Below are positions 20,641 through 36,447 of a DNA stretch of 64,000 bases, piece after piece. This DNA is from Pseudomonadota bacterium. GTDB taxonomy: Bacteria > Pseudomonadota > Alphaproteobacteria > UBA828. Numbering within the stretch: position 1 is the stretch's first letter; each line of letters starts with the position of its first letter. The stretch covers positions 1 through 64,000 of the forward strand of contig JAQBTG010000011.1 in assembly GCA_027624955.1 (NCBI GenBank), in the 5' to 3' direction. The notes under the pieces are model-generated. The model saw nothing but the letters and a program-made list of their open reading frames with translations, did no database searches and was not told the DNA's origin. The translations under genes were made by a program, and so were the position numbers.

Positions 20641-21399
20641 ATGGCGCAAATAAATTTCCAAAATCGCGGCGGTTTGGTCGCTGGCGCCGGCGGCGGCATG
20701 GGCCTCGCCATCGCCAACGGCCTAATTGAGGGCGGCGCCGATATTGTCCTGGCCGATATCAAGCCCGAGCCCCAAGGCATTGCCGCCGGTCCGGGCCGCG
20801 CGCTTTATCTACAGGGCGATTTGAGCGATGAGGATTTCGTCCGCGATGTCGTCGCCCAAACCCAAGCCCATGCCAGGCGCTTCGATTATCTCGTCAATAC
20901 AGTCGGCGTGTGGTGGGGCGAAACGGATCTGTCCGTTGTCGATATCGAGCGCTCGGTGTGGGATCGGGTGTTCGACATCAATCTCGGCTCTATGATGTTG
21001 ACGGCGCGCCATGCGGTGCCGCTGATGCAAGCCAATGGCGGCGGCGCCATCCTATTGATTTCTTCGATCCAGGCGCTGCGCGGTGATCCTCGCGCGCAGG
21101 ACGCCTACGGAATTTCAAAGGGTGCCATCCGTACGCTGTCCAAATCCCTCGCCATCCAGTTTGCCGGCGATAACATCCGCTGCAACGCTATCTTGCCGGG
21201 CTATGTCCGGAGCGAAATGACGCGCCGCTTCGATGACAATTCAGCGCGCAGCGAGGCGGTACGCAAACGCATCCCGCTCGCCCGTTTCGGCGAGGTTGCG
21301 GATATCGCCGGGCCAAGCTTGTTCTTGCTGTCCGACGCCGCCTCGTTCATTACCGGCACGGAGTTGATCGTCGACGGCGGTACGACCGCCCTACCGTAA
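20641..21399 (+). CDS. SDR family oxidoreductase (paralogue of the 15860 gene)
   Basis: 252 residues. Glycine motif AGAGGGMG at 14-21 (the usual Thr is replaced by Ala), Asp39 in ADIKPEPQ, Ser141/142, Tyr156 and Lys160 in AYGISKGA. Start ATG 20641 sits 4 nt after the stop of the cysteine-rich gene with GGAGAGGG upstream; the frame is open further upstream but overlaps that gene. Its last 9 nt overlap the 3' end of the convergent radical SAM gene. The similarity to the SDR on the other side of the regulator suggests two related dehydrogenation steps. NAD preference is inferred from the acidic residue after strand 2. Confidence 0.87.
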   Translation: MAQINFQNRGGLVAGAGGGMGLAIANGLIEGGADIVLADIKPEPQGIAAGPGRALYLQGDLSDEDFVRDVVAQTQAHARRFDYLVNTVGVWWGETDLSVVDIERSVWDRVFDINLGSMMLTARHAVPLMQANGGGAILLISSIQALRGDPRAQDAYGISKGAIRTLSKSLAIQFAGDNIRCNAILPGYVRSEMTRRFDDNSARSEAVRKRIPLARFGEVADIAGPSLFLLSDAASFITGTELIVDGGTTALP

Positions 21400-22545
21400 A
21401 GTCGGCACGACCGTCTTACCTAAAATTTCTGTCGCCTCAGCGGTGAAATCGCGCATCCGTACCGGCAGGCGTTTGGCACCCCAGGCGCCCGGCGCGCCCT
21501 CGAACACCCCGGCGCAGGGCGTGCCGCATTGGCGGCAGGCGCCGGCATCGTTCAACCCCCAGAATGAGAGCGTATAGCGGTCGCGCCCGATCAGCAGCGC
21601 CGAGCAATTATGGCAATAGGTGCTGCCGCGCCCGCGGTCGCTGACATTGCCGACATAGGCATGGCGCACGCCGTTTTTGAGTGCCGTGCGGCGCGCCAGA
21701 TTGAGGGTTTGGTGCGGCGTATTGGGCTTGTCCATCATGCGGTAATCGGGATGGAAAGCGGAAAAATGCAGCGGCACATCGGGTCCGAGATGTTCGACCA
21801 CCCAGGCGCTCATTTCATCGAATTCACCCTCTGAATCATTCTCGCCGGGGATCACCAGATTGGTGAGCTCGAACCAGGTGTCGGTTTCCTCTTTGAGAAA
21901 TATCAGCGTCTCCAGCACATCCTTCAAGTGGCTGTTGGTGATGTTCCAGTAGAAATCCTCGGTGAACGCCTTTAAATCGACATTGGTCGCGTCCATATGG
22001 CGGAAGAATTCGGCGCGCGGCTTGGGCGAAATATAGCCAGCCGTCACCGCCACCGTAGCGATGCCGATCTCCTTACAGGCCTGGGCGATATCGATGGCAT
22101 ATTCCATGAATATCACGGGGTCGTTATAGGTAAAGGCGACGCTTCGGCAGCCGAGCTTCTGCGCCACTGCCGCGACTTGCTCCGGCTTGGCGCCGTCGGC
22201 CAAGGTGTCGATCTCGCGCGATTTGCTGATGTCCCAATTCTGGCAAAACTTGCAGGCAAGATTGCAGCCCGCCGTGCCGAACGACAGCGTCGGCGTGCCG
22301 GGCAGGAAATGATTGAGTGGCTTTTTCTCGATCGGATCGACGCAAAAGCCGCTCGAACGCCCATAGGTGGTGAGCACCACTTGATCACCCAGCCGCCCGC
22401 GCACAAAACACAGGCCGCGCTGGCCTTCGTTCATTTTGCATGCGCGCGGGCACACATCGCATTGAATGCGGCCATCGTCGAGCGCATGCCAATATTGCGT
22501 CGGCCAGCTTTCAGTATTTTCGTCGATGCGCTCGTCGCCGCTCAT
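21391..22545 (-). CDS. amrS: AmmeMemoRadiSam system radical SAM enzyme
   Basis: 384 residues. The radical SAM cluster motif CNLACKFC is at Cys94, Cys98 and Cys101. An N-terminal Cys cluster (CDVCPRACKMNEGQRGLC, residues 29-46) and a C-terminal zinc-ribbon-like set (YCHNC, CRQCGTPC) complete the usual AmrS layout. The AmrS family is tightly linked to Memo and AMMECR1 proteins, and a fusion of those two is encoded divergently 60 nt away. The biochemical product of the system is not established as far as I know. I prefer ATG 22545 (MSGDERIDEN); an in-frame TTG at 22587 would add 14 residues. The 3' end overlaps the convergent SDR by 9 nt. Confidence 0.93.
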   Translation of the reverse strand: MSGDERIDENTESWPTQYWHALDDGRIQCDVCPRACKMNEGQRGLCFVRGRLGDQVVLTTYGRSSGFCVDPIEKKPLNHFLPGTPTLSFGTAGCNLACKFCQNWDISKSREIDTLADGAKPEQVAAVAQKLGCRSVAFTYNDPVIFMEYAIDIAQACKEIGIATVAVTAGYISPKPRAEFFRHMDATNVDLKAFTEDFYWNITNSHLKDVLETLIFLKEETDTWFELTNLVIPGENDSEGEFDEMSAWVVEHLGPDVPLHFSAFHPDYRMMDKPNTPHQTLNLARRTALKNGVRHAYVGNVSDRGRGSTYCHNCSALLIGRDRYTLSFWGLNDAGACRQCGTPCAGVFEGAPGAWGAKRLPVRMRDFTAEATEILGKTVVPTLR

Positions 22546-22605
22546 GAGGAATTTTCCGTGTGTTGTGCTAGAATGCGAGCGTAGCAAACCTATGAGAGCC
22601 TAGCC

Positions 22606-23988
22606 ATGGCAAGCGTGCGCCAACCGGCCGTCGCCGGCACATTTTATTCGGCCGAGGCATCGGAGTTAGAAAATTCCGCAGCCGCTCATCTTAATTCGCC
22701 CTTGGCCTGGGATATTGCCGCCAAGGCGCTGGTGGTGCCGCATGCGGGTCACGTCTATTCCGGCGCCATCGCCGGCACGGCCTATGCCTCGGTGCGACAC
22801 CTGGCCGCGCAAATTGAGCGCGTGGTTCTGCTCGGCCCGGCCCACCGTGTGGCGTTTAAGGGCGTCGCTGTGCCGAGCGCCGATGCCCATGCCACGCCGC
22901 TTGGCAATGTACCGGTCGATTGGCCGGGCGTCGCGACTGCGCTGGCGCTGCCGCAAGTGCATATCAACGATGCCGCGTTCGAAAATGAGCATTCGCTGGA
23001 AGTGCATCTGCCGTTCCTGCAACGCGCTCTCGGCGATTTCGCCCTGGTGCCGCTGCTGGTCGGTGATACCAAGCCCGAAGGGGTGGAGCAGGTGCTGCAA
23101 AAATTATGGGGCGGGCCGGAAACCCTGATCGTCATCAGCACCGATCTCAGCCACTTTCATGATTATGCCGAGGCACAAAAGCTCGACGCGAGCGCCACCC
23201 GCGCAATCGAGACCTTCAATGTCGAAGGCTTGAGCGGCGAGCTTGCCTGCGGCTTCCGCCCGCTTTCCGGCCTGTTGCGCGCCGCGCAGCGGCTTGACCT
23301 CCGTCCGACGACGCTCGATGTGCGCAATTCCGGCGATACGGCGGGCGATAAAATGCGGGTCGTCGGTTACGGCTCTTATGCGTTCGAATATTCCGGCGCC
23401 GCGCGCACGCCCGACAAATACCGCACGCCGTTCCTTGATATCGCCCAACAATCGATCCGCCACGGCATCAAGACCGGTGCCTGCCCGAATGTTGACCTAT
23501 CGGGCTTTCCGTATCCGATGCGCACCCACCGGCGCACATTTGTCAGCGTCCACACCGGCGGCAAGCTGCGCGGTTGTGTCGGCTCGCTGGTTGCCAACAA
23601 TCCGCTGATTGCCGATGTCGTGCAAAACGCCTACCGCGCCGCCTTCGAGGACAAGCGCTTCAAGCCGCTTACCGAAGAGGACCTGGTCGAGACCGATATT
23701 TCAATCTCCATTCTCAGCACGCCGCGGCCCATGGTTTTTCGCAATGAGGCCGATCTTGTGGCACAGATCCAGCCCGATACCGATGGCCTGATCCTGCAAG
23801 ACGGTAACAAGCGCGGCATCTTTCTGCCCGTCGTGTGGGAGCAGATTTCTGAGCCGCGCGAATTCCTGCGCCACCTCAAAAACAAGGCCGGCTTGCCGCT
23901 TGACCATTGGTCAGACGGCATCAAGCTGTGGCGCTACACCACCGAATCCTTCGCCACCAAATTCGCGCCAGCGCCGGCCGACGCTTAA
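22606..23988 (+). CDS. Memo-AMMECR1 fusion protein (AmmeMemoRadiSam B and A components)
   Basis: 460 residues in two parts. Residues 1-265 are the Memo domain: PHAGHVYSG (45-53), NEHSLEVHLPF (127-137), ISTDLSHFHD (177-186) and ACGFRPLSG with Cys215 line a metal site resembling non-haem iron dioxygenases. Residues 275-455 are the AMMECR1 domain with the hallmark KLRGCVGSL at 320-328. In many genomes these are separate genes; a single chain argues that the two work together. The start ATG 22606 is 60 nt from the divergent radical SAM partner, implying joint regulation. The cellular reaction is unknown; a role in modifying a nucleotide or small molecule with the radical SAM enzyme is only a guess. 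Confidence 0.92.
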   Translation: MASVRQPAVAGTFYSAEASELENSAAAHLNSPLAWDIAAKALVVPHAGHVYSGAIAGTAYASVRHLAAQIERVVLLGPAHRVAFKGVAVPSADAHATPLGNVPVDWPGVATALALPQVHINDAAFENEHSLEVHLPFLQRALGDFALVPLLVGDTKPEGVEQVLQKLWGGPETLIVISTDLSHFHDYAEAQKLDASATRAIETFNVEGLSGELACGFRPLSGLLRAAQRLDLRPTTLDVRNSGDTAGDKMRVVGYGSYAFEYSGAARTPDKYRTPFLDIAQQSIRHGIKTGACPNVDLSGFPYPMRTHRRTFVSVHTGGKLRGCVGSLVANNPLIADVVQNAYRAAFEDKRFKPLTEEDLVETDISISILSTPRPMVFRNEADLVAQIQPDTDGLILQDGNKRGIFLPVVWEQISEPREFLRHLKNKAGLPLDHWSDGIKLWRYTTESFATKFAPAPADA

Positions 23989-25271: not shown

Positions 25272-25946
25272 ATGGCTGATGGTCAAACCGGTCTCACGCG
25301 CGACGTGCCCCTGGAGCCGGGCCGCGCGGCGCTGTTGATCGTCGATGTGCAGAATTATTGCTGCGCCCGCAGCGGCAGCGCGTTCGACGGTTTGGACGAA
25401 GCCGGGTTCGAAGCCAAGTATGGCGATTATTTCCGCCGCCTTGAGCGCCAGACGATCCCCAATCTGCAAGCGCTGATCGCCGCCTGCCGCGCCGCCGGCG
25501 TCGAGGTCATATACACGGTGATCGAAGCGCTTACCCGCGATGGCCGCGATCGCGGCCTCGATTACAAGATCACCGGCTTTCTCGTCCCGCGTGGCTCGCC
25601 CGACGGCCGCGTGATCGCCGCCATCGCGCCCGGCGACGACGAGATCGTGTTGTTGAAATCAGCGTCCAGCGTCTTCAATTCGACCAATATTGAATATGTG
25701 CTGCGCAATCTCGGTGTCGAACGGCTCGCCATTTGCGGCGTCTATACCGAGCAATGCGTCGAATCTGCGGTGCGCGATGCCTGCGACCGCGGCTTTCTGG
25801 TCACCCTTGTGGGTGATGCCTGCACGACGCCGTCGCAAACCGCACATGACAATTCACTACAGGCGATCAAGGGCTATTGCCGGACCGTCAACACGGCGGA
25901 TTTGGTGACGGAGCTGAACGGCTATCGCCAGCGCCGCGCCAGTTAA
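25272..25946 (+). CDS. Isochorismatase-family cysteine hydrolase
   Basis: 224 residues with the amidase triad Asp25 (LLIVDVQNYC), Lys129 (IVLLKSASSVF) and Cys162 (GVYTEQCVESAVRDA), plus the cis-peptide region just before the Cys. The Asp-Lys-Cys triad identifies N-carbamoyl, ureido or nicotinamide-type amide hydrolysis rather than isochorismate cleavage. Start ATG 25272 has GAGAGCTGAAA ahead of it. It is 29 nt before a cupin and divergent from the second FGase-type enzyme. A ureido or carbamoyl substrate would fit the hydantoinase/oxoprolinase operon further right, but no direct link is visible. Confidence 0.87.
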   Translation: MADGQTGLTRDVPLEPGRAALLIVDVQNYCCARSGSAFDGLDEAGFEAKYGDYFRRLERQTIPNLQALIAACRAAGVEVIYTVIEALTRDGRDRGLDYKITGFLVPRGSPDGRVIAAIAPGDDEIVLLKSASSVFNSTNIEYVLRNLGVERLAICGVYTEQCVESAVRDACDRGFLVTLVGDACTTPSQTAHDNSLQAIKGYCRTVNTADLVTELNGYRQRRAS

Positions 25947-25975
25947 TCTTCTTAACCTCAGCATAGGAGCGCGCC

Positions 25976-26479
25976 ATGAGTGGCGATTCGCCGGTGATCA
26001 ATCTCGATGAAATCGAAATGGAACAGTGCGGCCCGTTCGGCGAATCCGGTGACTTCGAGGCGCAAATGGGCGCTATCGGCAGAGAAATCGGCGCGCAAAA
26101 ACTCGGTAGTCGCTTGGTCGTGGTGCCACCGGGCAAGCGCGCATGGCCGTTTCACCTGCACTACGCCAATGAGGAAATGTTCGTGATCCTGTCCGGCTCG
26201 GGGATGCTGCGCTACGGCGAACAAACCTTTCCGCTGCGCGGTGGCGATATCGTCGCGGCACCGCCCGGTACCGGCAAGGCACATCAGATCATCAATGATT
26301 CAGACGGTGAGCTGCGCTATCTCGCGATCAGCACCATGGAGCATCCGGAAGTGGCGGAGTATCCCGATTCCGACAAGATCGGCGTGGTTGCCGGGGCGCC
26401 GCCCGGCCGCCGGCCCTACGACCTGTTCTATTTCGCCAAGCGCGAATCAGGCGTTGATTACTGGGACGGCGAATCTTGA
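25976..26479 (+). CDS. Cupin domain-containing protein
   Basis: 167 residues, a single double-stranded beta-helix domain. The metal-binding set is His60, His62 and Glu66/67 (PFHLHYANEE), followed by GSGMLRYGEQTFPLRGGDIVAAPPG and His103 (KAHQIIN). The C-terminus, RPYDLFYFAKRESGVDYW, is common in small sugar- or acid-binding cupins. ATG 25976 follows TAGGAG and lies 29 nt after the isochorismatase-type hydrolase, so the pair is co-transcribed. Isomerase, dioxygenase or simple binding roles are all possible. Confidence 0.85.
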   Translation: MSGDSPVINLDEIEMEQCGPFGESGDFEAQMGAIGREIGAQKLGSRLVVVPPGKRAWPFHLHYANEEMFVILSGSGMLRYGEQTFPLRGGDIVAAPPGTGKAHQIINDSDGELRYLAISTMEHPEVAEYPDSDKIGVVAGAPPGRRPYDLFYFAKRESGVDYWDGES

Positions 26480-26519
26480 GGCTCTGCCCGATGGCGCTCG
26501 TAAACCGGGCGGGGGGTGG

Positions 26520-26756
26520 CTAATTTGCCAAGCGCTGCTTGAACAGGGTGATATCGTCGGGGGTGGTGCGCCCGGCCGCTGCGCCCGATGCCAACGCGTA
26601 GAGATCAGCTTCGATGGCGGCCTCGGTGATGGCGCCGGCCTGGATCGCCGGCCTGGATCGCCAGCCGGATATCGCCGGCGTTTGATAGCGCGCAGGCGCC
26701 GGTATCGGCGAAGACGCGCGCTCGCGCCAAGGTGGCGCAACAGATGATATCGGCCC
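26520..26756 (-). pseudogene. Remnant of an ornithine cyclodeaminase-family gene, internally deleted and frameshifted
   Basis: The reverse strand reads WADIICCATLA, then directly ARVFADTGACALSNAGDIRLAIQ, then after one frame change AGAITEAAIEADLYALASGAAAGRT and TPDDITLFKQRLAN-stop. Each piece matches the C-terminal part of the intact homologue at 29730-30674 (WADIISCATLS, ARIFVDTRAGALAEAGDILLAIQ, TGAISEEAIVADLYALTSGAAAGRT). The lesions are visible: loss of the 5' half, an internal deletion joining CATL to ARVF, a 13-nt tandem duplication (26637-26649 and 26650-26662, GGCCTGGATCGCC twice) that shifts the frame, and a short altered C-terminus. About 13% of residues in the matching blocks differ in kind, so it is an old paralogue rather than a fresh copy. 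Not translatable. Confidence 0.85.
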
Positions 26757-26931
26757 AGTTTCTCAGAATTTGCGATAGCTACCACAACAATTACATGAAT
26801 GTTGCGCGTTGATGTGGAGAAGTTTGGCTACATCTCGACTCGATTCTAGGTAAGATTAAAGTAAGATAAGACTGGCACTATTCGCAGTTGAGATTTTCAT
26901 TTCCGATTCGATTACAAATAGATAAAGAGCC
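26757..26931. promoter_or_regulatory. AT-rich upstream region of the sensor kinase with phased direct repeats
   Basis: This 175-nt stretch, together with the pseudogene, fills the 452-nt gap between the cupin and the kinase. It is much richer in A and T than its surroundings. It holds two GTAAGAT repeats at 26850-26856 and 26861-26867, exactly 11 nt (one helical turn) apart, in GTAAGATTAAAGTAAGATAA. Phased repeats of this kind often bind a response regulator, but no cognate one is encoded nearby. The promoter cannot be placed with confidence. Confidence 0.35.
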
Positions 26932-29754
26932 TTGCAGGTCACGCGACACAATTCCCCAGGGCCGTTCGCTTCAAAGGACGAGGCGGCGGAGGGCGCCGCT
27001 GGCGGCGCGGATAGCAGGCTGATTGCCGCTCAGGAGGAGAATCTCGCCCTCAAGGCCGAGTTGGAGCGCTACCGCCTCGCGGCCCTGGCGTCGCGCGAAA
27101 GCCTGTGGGAGTTGGATATCGCAACCGGCGACATCTGGTATTCGCCGCAAATTCTCGAAATGCTTGGCTGGGAAGGCCACGAGCGGGGCAGCCCGCAGGG
27201 GCTAATCGTCAGCTCCGACGACTGGATTGCTGAGGTTCATCCCGAAGATTTGGGCTTCGCCATGGAGGCGATCAAAGCCCATATAAAACATCACGCGGCC
27301 TACGACCTGGAATACCGCTTTCGCAGGCCGAGCGGCGAGTATCGTTGGCTGCGGATGACGGGACAGGCCATACGCGACGAAACGAATTTCGCGACGCGCA
27401 TGGTGGGCGTGGTCAGCGATGTTACTGAGCGCAAGCTGGCGGAGCAGGCGTTGCGAGAGAGCCAGGCCGAATCCGAAGCCGCGCGCAGCTATCTCACCAA
27501 CGCGCTGCAGAGCATGCGCGACGGCTTCGGCATTTGGGACGCGGATGAACGCCTGGTGATATTCAACGAGTCGTTCCGCACGTTGGCCGGCGAGGCAGCG
27601 GATTTCTATCGGGTGGGAGTGGCCTTCGAGGATGTCATCCGCCAAGGCGCTGAGATCGGCCAGTGGTATCTCGGTGAGGGCGGCGTGGAAGGCTTTGTTG
27701 CGGAACGCTTGGCCAGTTTCAGGGCCGGCGAGACATATGAACTGCGTCGCAGCGACGGCACCTGGATGGAAGCCCTCGACCACAAGGCGGAAGGCGGGCA
27801 AACCATCAGCTGCCGCATCGACATCACCGCGCGGAAACACACCGAGGAGGCGCTGCGCCGAAATGAGGCGAACCTCAAAGCGGCGCAGCAGATATCCACT
27901 ATCGGCAATTGGGAGATTAGCGACGACGAGGATGCCGGCGAGTGGTCGGACGAGGTTTACCGGATATTTGGGCGTGACAAGGACGCGTTCGGCGCCTCTT
28001 ACAACCGCTTCCTTGAATGCGCCCATCCGGACGATCGCGAGATGGTAAAGAGCGAAATCGCGCAGGGTATGGCCGCGGGGGTAGCCTTCTCCTTCCGGCA
28101 CCGGATCGTCCGCCCGGGCGGCGAGGTGCGCCACGTGCTGGAGCGCGCGGTTCCGCGTTGGGCGAAGGACGGAACCGTGATCGGTGGCGCCGGTACGGTG
28201 CAGGACATTACCGAACAAACAGAATTGGACGAGGCGCTGCGTCACAGCGAGCACCGGCTGCGCGAAGCCCAACGCATTTCCAGTATCGGCGACTGGGAAT
28301 CTGTCGGCGCCTCGAGAAAGCGCCGTTGGTCGGACGAGATTTACCAAATTCTCGGACGCGATCCAGAGACCTATGCGTCAAGCTACGATAACTTCTTGGC
28401 TTGTATCCATCCGGATGACCAAGATCAGGTCGAAGCTTCGATTCGTACAGGGGTGGCGTCGGGCAAGCCGTATTCCTTCGAGCACCGCATTGTCCGCCCG
28501 GATGGTAGCGTGCGCCATGTCCTTCAGCGGGCGCTCGCCCGCCGTGCCGAAAACGGCGAAATGGGCACGGTCGGCACCGTTCAGGACATCACCGAGCGCA
28601 TGGAGATGTTGGAACGGCTGCAGCAGGCGCAGAAAATGGAAGCCGTCGGTCAGCTCACCGGTGGCATTGCTCATGATTTCAACAATCTGCTGACGGTGAT
28701 CATCGGCAATCTCGATTTGCTCAAGGAAACGGTGGAGCAAAATTCCGACAAGATCGATTTGATCGACCGCGGCGTGCGTGCCGCCGAGCGCGGCGCCGAT
28801 CTGACCCACAGGCTGCTCGCCTTTTCGCGCCGGCAGACGCTCTTGCCGGTGGCGGTGGATCTCAACATGCTGATCTCGGGCATGATCGAAATGCTGCGCC
28901 GCACACTGGGCGAAACGATCACTATCTCGACCCGCGAGCCGGCCGATTTGTGGCTGTGCGAGGCGGACAAGTCGCAGTTAGAGAATGCGCTGTTGAATCT
29001 GGCGATCAACGCGCGCGACGCGATGCCAGATCGCGGTAAGCTGTTGATCGAAACCGCCAATGTTGAATTCAGCGAGGACGAGGGCGGCGTCCTCAATATC
29101 GAGCCCGGTTGCTATGTAAAGCTACGCATTGCCGATACCGGCAGTGGGATCGCTGCGGAAATGCTGAATCATGTGTTCGAGCCTTTCTTCACCACCAAGG
29201 ATGTCGGCAAGGGTTCGGGCCTGGGGCTCAGCATGGTTTACGGTTTCGCCCGTCAATCCGGCGGCGTCGTGATGATCGACAGCGCGCTGGGCAAGGGTAC
29301 CGCGGTCTCGCTCTATCTGCCGCGCGCGAACGACGGGACGGTACGCGGCGCGGAAAGTCTCTCCCATATTGAGGTCTTGCGCGGCAACGAAGAGCGCATC
29401 CTGGTCGTTGAGGACGACCGCGGCGTGCGCGACCAGACGGTCAACCTGTTGCTGTCGCTCGGATATCGCGCCTATCCGGTGGATTCAGGGCAGGCCGCAT
29501 TGAAGCAATTGGCGGAGATGCCGTCGTTTGACCTGTTGTTGAGCGATGTCGTGCTGCCCGATTTGAATGGCCCGTCTCTGGTCGAGATCGCCCGGCGGCA
29601 GGACCCCGATATCGCCGTCTTGTACATGACCGGCTACGCCGATGGCGCCTTCGAGCACCATGCCGAGGAAAATAAATCGACCGGCCTGATCAACAAACCG
29701 TTCACCAAAGCGCAGCTCGCGCGTTCAGTTCACGACGCCTTGAGGCGCTTATAG
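26932..29754 (+). CDS. Hybrid sensor histidine kinase, four PAS domains, HisKA, HATPase and receiver
   Basis: 940 residues, apparently soluble: no membrane segments or signal peptide. Order: short coiled region (25-50), PAS 1 (about 50-168), PAS 2 (about 185-305), PAS 3 (312-430), PAS 4 (437-555), HisKA with His581 in GGIAHDFNNLL, HATPase with N box NLAINARDAMP and G boxes ADTGSGIA and GKGSGLGLSM, and a receiver from about 823 with the phospho-acceptor Asp872 (LLLSDVVLPD). PAS 3 and PAS 4 are an internal duplication (WSDE(V/I)Y, FLxCxHPDD, VRHVLxRA repeated). The start is unclear: TTG 26932 has no well-placed Shine-Dalgarno and no ATG occurs before PAS 1. The last 25 nt overlap the 3' end of the convergent cyclodeaminase gene. 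An orphan: its downstream partner is not in the window. Confidence 0.92.
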   Translation: MQVTRHNSPGPFASKDEAAEGAAGGADSRLIAAQEENLALKAELERYRLAALASRESLWELDIATGDIWYSPQILEMLGWEGHERGSPQGLIVSSDDWIAEVHPEDLGFAMEAIKAHIKHHAAYDLEYRFRRPSGEYRWLRMTGQAIRDETNFATRMVGVVSDVTERKLAEQALRESQAESEAARSYLTNALQSMRDGFGIWDADERLVIFNESFRTLAGEAADFYRVGVAFEDVIRQGAEIGQWYLGEGGVEGFVAERLASFRAGETYELRRSDGTWMEALDHKAEGGQTISCRIDITARKHTEEALRRNEANLKAAQQISTIGNWEISDDEDAGEWSDEVYRIFGRDKDAFGASYNRFLECAHPDDREMVKSEIAQGMAAGVAFSFRHRIVRPGGEVRHVLERAVPRWAKDGTVIGGAGTVQDITEQTELDEALRHSEHRLREAQRISSIGDWESVGASRKRRWSDEIYQILGRDPETYASSYDNFLACIHPDDQDQVEASIRTGVASGKPYSFEHRIVRPDGSVRHVLQRALARRAENGEMGTVGTVQDITERMEMLERLQQAQKMEAVGQLTGGIAHDFNNLLTVIIGNLDLLKETVEQNSDKIDLIDRGVRAAERGADLTHRLLAFSRRQTLLPVAVDLNMLISGMIEMLRRTLGETITISTREPADLWLCEADKSQLENALLNLAINARDAMPDRGKLLIETANVEFSEDEGGVLNIEPGCYVKLRIADTGSGIAAEMLNHVFEPFFTTKDVGKGSGLGLSMVYGFARQSGGVVMIDSALGKGTAVSLYLPRANDGTVRGAESLSHIEVLRGNEERILVVEDDRGVRDQTVNLLLSLGYRAYPVDSGQAALKQLAEMPSFDLLLSDVVLPDLNGPSLVEIARRQDPDIAVLYMTGYADGAFEHHAEENKSTGLINKPFTKAQLARSVHDALRRL

Positions 29755-30674
29755 ACCAGGCTCGCAGCGGCAAGGTCTTCGAGCGCCGCACCGACCGATT
29801 TGAACACCGTGATCTCGTCGCCGCTGGTGCGCCCCGCAGCCGCGCCCGAAGTGAGCGCGTAAAGATCGGCAACAATCGCCTCTTCCGATATCGCGCCGGT
29901 CTGGATCGCCAGCAGAATGTCGCCCGCCTCCGCGAGCGCGCCGGCGCGGGTATCGACGAAGATGCGCGCCCGCACCAAAGCGGCATCGTCGCTCTCGCGC
30001 ATATCCGGGCGGAACGCGCCGACGAGGTCGAGATGCACGCCAGCGCTTAGCCATTCGCCTTTTATGAGCGCCGCCTGTGACAGCGTGGCGCAACTGATGA
30101 TGTCGGCCCAACCGGCGGACTCCCGTAAATCCGTGATCGGCGAGATATCGACGCCCGGCAGGTCCAGGCGCGCGGCCAAGGCTTCAGCATTTTTCGCCTG
30201 GCGCGACCACACCCGGACTTCGCGAATTGGCCGCATCGCGGCATGGGCGCTGATCAGGTACGGCGCCAAGCTGCCCGAGCCGACCATCAACAGGCGTGCC
30301 GAACCGCTGCGCGAAAGATAGTCGGAGGCCAGCGCCGAGGCGGCGGCAGTCCGCCACCGCGTTAGGACAGTCCCTTCAATCAACGCCAGCGGTTCGCCGC
30401 TCGCGGCATCCATCAGATAATATTGGCCGAGGACGGAGGGCAGTTCGCGCGCCGCATTGTCGCCAAAAATCGTGACGGTTTTTACGCCCATCATGCCGCC
30501 GGCCTGCCAGGCCGGCATTATCAGGAGGGTGCCTTGGGCGCCGCCCGGCACGTCAACTGTGTGATGATGGCGGGTCGGCATCTCGCAAGGCTTGCGAAAC
30601 ATATCGCGCAGCGCCTCGATCAGCGCCGGGTAGTCGAGCAATCCGGCGAGCGTTTCGGCGTTGATAATTTGCAT
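29730..30674 (-). CDS. Ornithine cyclodeaminase / mu-crystallin family protein
   Basis: 314 residues with the family pattern: MPTRHHHTVDVPGGAQGT, GTVLTRWRTAAASALASDYLSR as the substrate and cofactor region, and LLMVGSGSLAPYLISAHAA as the NAD-binding GxGxxA-like turn, followed by VRVWSR. Members include ornithine cyclodeaminase, delta-1-pyrroline-2-carboxylate reductase, alanine dehydrogenase and tauropine-type enzymes; the activity cannot be chosen from sequence alone. It lies 9 nt downstream of the last hydantoinase B gene on the same strand, so it probably acts on the amino or imino acid released by that operon. A decayed relative lies on the other side of the kinase at 26520-26756. Confidence 0.87.
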   Translation of the reverse strand: MQIINAETLAGLLDYPALIEALRDMFRKPCEMPTRHHHTVDVPGGAQGTLLIMPAWQAGGMMGVKTVTIFGDNAARELPSVLGQYYLMDAASGEPLALIEGTVLTRWRTAAASALASDYLSRSGSARLLMVGSGSLAPYLISAHAAMRPIREVRVWSRQAKNAEALAARLDLPGVDISPITDLRESAGWADIISCATLSQAALIKGEWLSAGVHLDLVGAFRPDMRESDDAALVRARIFVDTRAGALAEAGDILLAIQTGAISEEAIVADLYALTSGAAAGRTSGDEITVFKSVGAALEDLAAASLVYKRLKAS

Positions 30675-34236: not shown

Positions 34237-36276
34237 CTATTCGGCGATTTTTCCGATCAGCAAATTGCCGTATGCGTCCACTCGTAAATTATGGTCCGGG
34301 CGTAGGATCGTTACCGACGCCGCTTCTTCGACAATCGCCGGGCCGCTGATCCTGTGGCCTTCGAGGAGGCTCGCCCGGTCGTAAATTGGCGTATCGTGCT
34401 GGCCATCTTCAAATGTCACTTCGCGCCGCGAACTCGGTTCCGCCGCCGTGCCGCCGCTTTTGCCGATGGTGGCTAATTCTGGCTTCTCGGTCAGCGATAC
34501 GGTGGTCGCCTTGACGGTGATCACTTCGATCACTTCGCGCGGAATGTTGAAGCCGAAACGCGCCAGATGCATGTCGTGAAATGCCTGCCACAACTGCGGC
34601 GTGGTCTCGTCGGTAAAGCCATCGAACGAAATCGGGATTTCCAACTCGTAATTTTGGCCGAGATAGCGCATTTCCAGCGAGCGGAAGACTTCCACATTTT
34701 TGCCGTAGCCCTGCGCCGTGAGATCGTTGATCCCGGTTTCAATCAAGGCGCGCATGACTTCGGTGGCGCGCGTCTGATCGAAGCGCTTTGATGTCATTTG
34801 CACGGTGCGCATGGTGTCGACGCGGGCATCGGTGAGGATAAATCCGAAAGCCGAGAACTGGCCCGGATAGTTGGGCACGATACCGCTTGGGATGCCGGCG
34901 TCGTTCATCAGATCGGAGATGTGGAGTGGCCCGGCACCGCCGAAGCCAAGCAGCGAGAAATCGCGCGGATCGAGGCCGCGTTCGATCAGCACCGAGCGCA
35001 GCGCGCCGACCATATTATTGTTGGCGATCTGGATGACGGCGAGCGCCGTCTCGGCGGGTGAGCGGCCAAGTTCTTTGGCGACTGCCTGCATGGCGCTTTC
35101 GGCCGCTTTTTTGTCGAGCTTCATGGCGCCGCCGAGGAAATAATCGGGGTTGATTCTCCCGAGGATCACATTGGCGTCGGTCACTGTGGCTTTGGTGCCG
35201 CCGTTGCCGTAACACGCTGGGCCCGGATCAGCGCCCGCGCTTTCGGGGCCAACGCGGAGCATGCCGCCTTTATCGATCCACGCGATTGAGCCGCCGCCGG
35301 CGCCGATGGTGCGGATATCGATCATCGGGATTTGGATCGGAATGCCGAACTCAATCTCGAAATCGGTGGTGAAATTTTCCTTGCCACCGACGATGGTCGA
35401 CGTGTCGGTCGAGGTGCCGCCCATATCGATGGTCACCAGATGATCAATGCCGACAAGCTTGGCGATATGCTTGCCGGCAATGACGCCACCGGTCGGGCCG
35501 GAAACGGTCATTTGAATCGGCGAGTTTTCCGCCGCTTCCAAGGACATTTCGCCGCCGTTCGATTTAATCACCACGATATGATCCGTGATGCCGTTTTCGA
35601 CGAAGCGCTGGCGGATATTGCGCACCTGTTTGCTGACGATGGGTTTTATATAGGCGTCGGCGATGGTGGTTGAGGCGCGCTCATATTCTTTCCATTTGGG
35701 CAGCACTTCATAGGATATGGAGACCGGAATATCGGGTAAATCCTCGGCGAGAATTTCCTTAACGCGGCGCTCATGCTCGGGGCTCACATAGGAAAACAAG
35801 AAATTGACGGCCAGTGCCTCGATCTCGCCCTCTTGCTTGATCTGTTTCGCCATAGCGCGCACGCCGGCCTCGTCGAGCGGTATTTCGACCTCGCCATTGG
35901 CCATCACGCGCTCGGAAATTTCGTAGCAATGGCGCCGTTTGACCAGCGGTTTCGGCTTGATCCATGTGATGTCGTAATGACTGCGCCGGTTGCCGCGCTG
36001 GATGAATGGAATATCCTTGAAGCCATTGGTGGTGACATAGCCCACCGTCGCGCCTTTGCGCTCCAAAATCGCGTTGGTCGCGACTGTGGTGCCGAGGCGG
36101 ATATTTTTAATGTCGCCAGGGTTTTCGAATTTTCCTAAACCGGTGAGAATCCCGTCATTCGGGTCTTTCGGCGTAGAGGGATTCTTCCACACTTCAACGG
36201 TTTTGGTCTGCGGATCATAGGACACAAAATCAGTGAACGTCCCGCCCACATCGATACCAACCATGTAACCTGCCAC
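34237..36276 (-). CDS. hyuA: Hydantoinase/oxoprolinase family A subunit
   Basis: 679 residues of HyuA. The N-terminal acetate/sugar-kinase-like ATP motif MVGIDVGGTFTDFV opens the chain, followed by VATNAILERKGATVGYVTTNGF, SNGGEMSLEAAENSPI, DMGGTSTDTS and GAGGGSIAWID, all typical of ATP-dependent oxoprolinase/hydantoinase A subunits. I chose GTG 36276 (VAGYMVGID) because GGGGAGAG stands 5 nt before it; ATG 36264 is the alternative. First gene of the A-B-B-cyclodeaminase operon. The product hydrolyses a cyclic amide with ATP, or carboxylates a ketone if this is the acetone/acetophenone-carboxylase branch; which branch cannot be told by eye. Confidence 0.92.
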   Translation of the reverse strand: MAGYMVGIDVGGTFTDFVSYDPQTKTVEVWKNPSTPKDPNDGILTGLGKFENPGDIKNIRLGTTVATNAILERKGATVGYVTTNGFKDIPFIQRGNRRSHYDITWIKPKPLVKRRHCYEISERVMANGEVEIPLDEAGVRAMAKQIKQEGEIEALAVNFLFSYVSPEHERRVKEILAEDLPDIPVSISYEVLPKWKEYERASTTIADAYIKPIVSKQVRNIRQRFVENGITDHIVVIKSNGGEMSLEAAENSPIQMTVSGPTGGVIAGKHIAKLVGIDHLVTIDMGGTSTDTSTIVGGKENFTTDFEIEFGIPIQIPMIDIRTIGAGGGSIAWIDKGGMLRVGPESAGADPGPACYGNGGTKATVTDANVILGRINPDYFLGGAMKLDKKAAESAMQAVAKELGRSPAETALAVIQIANNNMVGALRSVLIERGLDPRDFSLLGFGGAGPLHISDLMNDAGIPSGIVPNYPGQFSAFGFILTDARVDTMRTVQMTSKRFDQTRATEVMRALIETGINDLTAQGYGKNVEVFRSLEMRYLGQNYELEIPISFDGFTDETTPQLWQAFHDMHLARFGFNIPREVIEVITVKATTVSLTEKPELATIGKSGGTAAEPSSRREVTFEDGQHDTPIYDRASLLEGHRISGPAIVEEAASVTILRPDHNLRVDAYGNLLIGKIAE

Positions 36277-36447
36277 GCGTTCTCTCCCCGGCGTTCTGGG
36301 CCGGCCCGCCGCTTGGCGCGCCAGCAATTATCCATACTGAAATTGCGCAGATTTTCCGCGCAAATTGAGGCGCGATGTTATCGGCGCCGAACGTTCGGGG
36401 CAACTGAATTGCGGCGCGCCGCCCCGGCGCTGCGAGGCGCGCTGAGT

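Follow-up and report, generated by a model that had tools for sequence, protein, structure and literature searches.

Pseudogenes derived from duplicated genes in bacteria are characterised by truncation in combination with insertions and deletions. Rearrangement of gene order by tandem duplication and subsequent random loss has been described for animal mitochondrial genomes (e.g., PMC5745709), where a leftover pseudogene lies between the reordered genes. The locus treated in the present study touches on both and belongs to an uncultured marine alphaproteobacterium, in whose DNA positions 26458-26757 (minus strand) of the window, i.e., the whole stretch of 64,000 nt that was analysed, were confirmed as the degraded C-terminal part of a second gene copy of the ornithine cyclodeaminase (OCD)/mu-crystallin family.

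Like the pseudogenes of bacterial gene duplicates, this relic is truncated, frame-shifted, altered in excess at conserved sites and situated near an intact homologue; unlike in the usual case, its convergent partner is not that of the intact copy, and the two junctions are each kept in different relatives. With the mitochondrial rearrangements it shares the leftover pseudogene between reordered genes, here between a cupin-domain gene and a histidine kinase gene, but it differs in lying on a bacterial chromosome, in involving few genes and in that the two full copies were found together in no relative. Measured against its family, the intact gene passes the cut-offs of OCD/mu-crystallin and of the reductase PRK06141, whereas about 60% of the family's length (roughly the first 187 codons, i.e., everything before the motif WADII at about codon 188) is missing from the relic, together with a further 35 codons. 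A literature search found no paper on an ornithine cyclodeaminase pseudogene with hydantoinase.

Results

Extent and lesions of the relic

The window lies on contig C11 of genome G000, a 3.58-Mb draft made up of 84 contigs, with a completeness of 98.25% and a contamination of 2.35%. The following features were distinguished:

25272-25946, plus strand: isochorismatase-fold hydrolase gene (iso), bordering the variable slot on the left
25976-26479, plus strand: cupin-domain gene, convergent with the relic and overlapping the stop of the latter by 22 nt
26458-26757, minus strand: relic (pseudogene) of an OCD/mu-crystallin-family gene, C-terminal part, stop codon kept at 26458-26460
26538-26539 (approximate), minus strand: junction of a 10-nt deletion restoring the frame of the relic tail
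26633-26658, minus strand: exact, frame-shifting 13-nt tandem duplication within the relic
26730-26731 (approximate, from the alignment), minus strand: junction of an in-frame internal deletion of 105 nt (35 codons) in the relic
26758-26931, no strand: spacer from the relic to the start of the kinase gene, with weak similarity to the DNA between iso and kinase in G002 and G003
26932-29754, plus strand: gene of a PAS-rich hybrid histidine kinase, overlapping the intact OCD gene by 25 nt
29730-30674, minus strand: intact OCD-family gene, NCBIfam PRK06141 (Delta1-pyrroline/piperideine-2-carboxylate reductase)

A local alignment of the minus strand of 26440-26960 with the intact gene reached a score of 143.2, as opposed to a mean of 27.1 and a maximum of 45.3 in 200 dinucleotide shuffles. 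The fossil beside an intact homologue, which had been proposed from the letters of the DNA alone, is thus real, and the gene beyond the kinase, to which that sequence-only reading had related it, is indeed the homologue of this dead copy. When the gap between cupin and kinase was compared by BLAST with its own genome, the sole other place found was 29800-29984 within the intact gene (71%, E 5e-24), and no second close OCD copy was found elsewhere in that genome. Over 249 homologous columns the relic is identical to the intact gene in 185 (74.3%), to the gene of G003 in 73.1% and to that of G004 in 71.5%.

Along the relic the lesions follow each other as 5' loss, 105-nt deletion, 13-nt duplication and 10-nt deletion. 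An internal deletion and a tandem duplication shifting the frame had been claimed before, and both were recovered: the former is in frame and visible in the alignment, the latter consists of two identical units at 26633-26645 and 26646-26658. The 10-nt deletion had been missed; since it returns the tail to the original frame, only the part between the duplication and this deletion near 26538 is shifted. Similarly, the interval given at first (26520-26756) located the relic but was too short at the 3' end, as the homology reaches 26458, where the tail ALGKLATPRPVYERHRAEPQDSPSQ and the stop codon of the relic itself survive within the 3'-terminal part of the cupin gene. With homology above chance, disabling lesions and relaxed constraint, the relic is an ordinary pseudogene, which in addition records how the locus was reshuffled.

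A variable slot in related genomes

As far as contigs reach, genomes of the same genus share a block rSAM-AMMO-FGase-iso-[slot]-OCD-hyuB1-hyuB2-hyuA (the gene nicknames are our own). Flanked by iso and OCD, which are convergent, the slot is empty in G001, holds the cupin gene in G004, the kinase gene in G003, kinase and cupin in G002 (order iso-kinase-cupin-OCD), and cupin, relic and kinase in the window (25947-29729). The locus of G003 was pieced together from two contigs that have 55 identical bases in common at their ends, within the kinase gene. In G005 hyuB2 follows iso, with neither OCD nor hyuB1 between them, and in G007, a member of another genus of the family, the slot (L091:3630-6912) carries a pyridoxal-dependent decarboxylase-like gene, an ArsR-type regulator, a methyltransferase and a GST. 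The cargo of the iso-OCD gap hence differs in nearly every genome compared. Two full OCD copies were seen in none of the 20 other genomes of the family, several of which have contig breaks, and among 80 loci of the genome collection two (L102, L103) had the neighbours of this locus, apparently from genomes already in the comparison. Two genes in the relatives matched in two pieces in different frames, namely the OCD gene of G003 (L089:2299-2475) and the cupin gene of G004 (L092:12524-12526), each reflecting a frameshift that is either real or an assembly error.

Two types of junction

A comparison with relatives for an intact copy had been suggested as a check, and G002 and G004 have one at the corresponding place: in both, the cupin and OCD genes share 22 nt with overlapping stop codons, and the overlap of cupin and relic in the window is exactly 22 nt as well. 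The overlap of kinase and OCD genes amounts to 25 nt in G003 and to exactly 25 nt for the intact gene of the window. The encoded tails fall into the same types, one on the cupin side (...QDSPSQ/K; relic YERHRAEPQDSPSQ, G002 AYQRHGARPQDSPSQ, G004 VYKRHAERVQDSPSK) and one on the kinase side (...KRxxAS; VYKRLKAS in the intact gene of G000, VYKRCNAS in G003). Because junctions and tails match by type, the relic is the copy on the cupin side and the intact gene that on the kinase side. The locus thus comprises two pairs of convergent genes, one of cupin and OCD-a (dead), the other of kinase and OCD-b (alive). As the cupin-type tail runs antisense to cupin coding sequence, its conservation is presumably in part imposed by the cupin gene; it is the shared junction and not the tail residues alone that bears the argument.

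In a joint tree of the flanking proteins G000+G004 (support 67) and G001+G002 (support 100) formed sister pairs, while the placement of G003 and G005 was not firm. Being spread across the genus tree, both junction types are likely old. The value of the relic is that of a dated trace: as the overlaps from stop to stop are exact (22 nt and 25 nt), the descent of each junction can be read off, and how this small metabolic locus was reshuffled becomes directly testable with a few more genomes.

Divergence and constraint

Relic and intact gene differ at 19 of 83, 9 of 84 and 36 of 82 first, second and third codon positions, respectively. The corresponding differences of the intact gene are 14, 8 and 37 to G003 and 14, 9 and 36 to G004, and since these values are close to each other, the copies appear to have parted at about the time the species did and to have evolved mostly while coding. 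In columns identical among the functional genes of G000 to G004 the relic is altered at 7 of 54, 4 of 64 and 2 of 17 positions (first, second and third), and private changes at first and second positions of the same stretch number 11 in the relic as opposed to 2 in G000, 3 in G004, 4 in G001, 2 in G002 and 3 in G003. This excess at conserved codon positions places the decay in a later phase. The test by codon position gives the same picture for old duplicates on one chromosome and for two lineages fused later, and cannot tell them apart.

Searches in the gaps

The gap 26758-26931 is weakly similar to the iso-kinase gaps of relatives, with scores that were reached by 2 of 500 shuffles for G002 and 1 of 500 for G003; the better-scoring G002-like stretch between relic and kinase is 26818-26921 (2 of 500 shuffles). 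A G002-like segment beginning this gap at 26765 was dismissed, as the alignment did not hold at that point, and no OCD homology was seen in the alignments of 26758-26931. Nor was a second OCD remnant established in eight gaps of G002, G003, G004, G005 and G007. The strongest candidate, in the iso-kinase gap of G003, scored 31.7, the highest of 200 simple shuffles being 30.4, but was discarded, as 12 of 200 dinucleotide shuffles reached its score. For G005 (FGase-iso gap) and G004 (iso-cupin gap) the scores were attained by 3 and 7 of 200 shuffles, respectively, all of them simple ones.

Discussion

Origin of the two pairs

With a probability of roughly one half we infer an old tandem duplication, by which two convergent pairs arose and of which the cupin-side copy, OCD-a, decayed in this genome. 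An ancestor would have gained the pairs cupin/OCD-a and kinase/OCD-b by duplication of a segment, and different parts would then have been lost in different lineages according to the scheme of tandem duplication and random loss: here OCD-a through 5' truncation, internal deletion and two small indels, in G004 the kinase and one OCD copy, in G003 the cupin and one OCD copy, and in G001 everything between iso and OCD. Such an ancestor with both pairs is preferred because neither junction type is confined to a single branch of the genus. Against it stand three points: a tree joining the relic to G004 and the intact gene to G003 was not obtained (6.6 log-likelihood units short of the best tree, AU p 0.126, i.e., neither supported nor rejected), the order iso-kinase-cupin-OCD in G002 would require a permutation, and neither a second OCD remnant in the gaps of relatives nor a genome with two full copies was observed.

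The same two overlaps of 22 nt and 25 nt would also be expected if two versions of the locus had been fused, i.e., if a native iso-cupin-OCD arrangement, as in the sister G004, had received kinase-OCD(-hyuB) DNA from a G003-like relative through homologous recombination at the hyuB/OCD end and through an illegitimate join that fell within the native OCD gene and inactivated it from then on. The abrupt end of the relic at about codon 188, beside DNA with a weak resemblance to what precedes the kinase gene in relatives, is explained by such a join as well as by duplication. Quartet sites grouping G000 with G004 as opposed to G000 with G003 (outgroup G002) numbered 101:47 for the pooled upstream genes AMMO, FGase and iso, and 22:25 for the intact OCD gene (Fisher p 0.0096 against these three), which hints at an exchange in the OCD gene, the signal being dependent on the outgroup: with G001, the ratio was 24:17 in OCD and, in iso, which alone of the upstream genes could be tested with this outgroup, 24:11. 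Furthermore, OCD trees keep the intact gene of G000 with that of G004 (support 74), hyuB1 (26:16) does not differ from the upstream genes (p 0.46), and an intact OCD gene composed of a G004-like and a G003-like part was abandoned for want of a clear breakpoint. On balance a fusion is regarded as possible, though somewhat doubtful. Placement of the relic among 945 topologies of 7 taxa, to which it contributed about 249 columns, left the best trees with relic+G000, relic+G004 and relic+G003 unrejected (AU p 0.748, 0.373 and 0.771); relic+G001 was rejected (0.037) and relic+G002 borderline (0.062), while a first test on one fixed backbone had rejected both of the latter (each p 0.011). The gene trees are therefore too weak to choose between duplication and fusion. 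Hence, of two cyclodeaminase genes flanking the kinase, as postulated by the sequence-only reading, the dead copy is established; two full-length genes may once have stood side by side in this lineage, or the truncation of the relic could date from the joining of two versions of the locus, between which the gene trees do not decide.

A recent copy of the intact gene, made in this lineage alone and followed by rapid decay, would agree with the intact gene of G000 being the top pairwise match of the relic (185 of 249) and with the unrejected tree that unites them. It was given up as the main reading and is improbable, as the relic bears the cupin-type tail and stop of G002 and G004 instead of the kinase-type tail of the intact copy, and as the differences between the two are rich in third positions and as numerous as between species. 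An even smaller chance is assigned to two strains having been joined during metagenome assembly: the draft is divided into 84 contigs, with 98.25% completeness and 2.35% contamination, and the two junction types occur separately in relatives, but a strain join accounts neither for the duplication and the two deletions in the relic nor for its surplus of changes at conserved sites. That the remnant still acts, for instance as a terminator or antisense element, is suggested by its position between two genes on the opposite strand, yet it is very improbable, as no promoter-like or terminator-like site was found in 26300-27100 and conserved codon positions were changed in excess. Most likely the relic is inert and the intact OCD-b supplies the enzyme.

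To return to the old tandem duplication, we tentatively regard the iso-OCD gap as a slot of fast turnover, in which gene order may change by tandem duplication and loss, this genome having perhaps been caught midway. If so, the two junctions, one live and one dead, which among the compared genomes are present together here alone, would explain the single-junction states of the relatives.

The intact enzyme and neighbouring genes

The intact protein scored 211.5 bits with PF02423 (OCD/mu-crystallin; Pfam gathering cut-off 24) and 426 bits with NF004793 (PRK06141, equivalog of Delta1-pyrroline-2-carboxylate/Delta1-piperideine-2-carboxylate reductase; cut-off 322). With the cyclodeaminase equivalogs NF005762 and NF006141 it attained 130.2 of 350 and 135.9 of 408 bits, respectively, and it lay far below the NCBIfam cut-offs of ornithine cyclodeaminase and EutC. 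Its best solved relative by sequence, 7rbp (E 3e-67), was deposited as ornithine cyclodeaminase/mu-crystallin. On the strength of these profile scores the enzyme is probably a pyrroline/piperideine-2-carboxylate reductase. The label ornithine cyclodeaminase used at first therefore holds for the family (PF02423), but probably not for the function, since the reductase cut-off was passed and the models named after cyclodeaminases were not reached; proteins of PF02423 should not by default be named ornithine cyclodeaminases.

The kinase of the window comprises 940 aa as opposed to 1081 aa in the open frame of its counterpart in G002, and the best kinase match begins at residue 98 here and at residue 237 in G002, which suggests that its N-terminal part is different or shortened. 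For the hyuA-like protein (34237-36327) the top NCBIfam match was caprolactamase subunit alpha with 564.7 bits, below the cut-off of 1000; together with the two HyuB-like genes it may represent a hydrolase of lactam or oxoproline type. On the other side of the slot, a radical-SAM-like gene, the name of which is provisional, is situated divergently beside a fused Memo-AMMECR1 gene (PF01875 + PF01871), and this pair, at 21391-23988, is conserved in several genomes of the genus.
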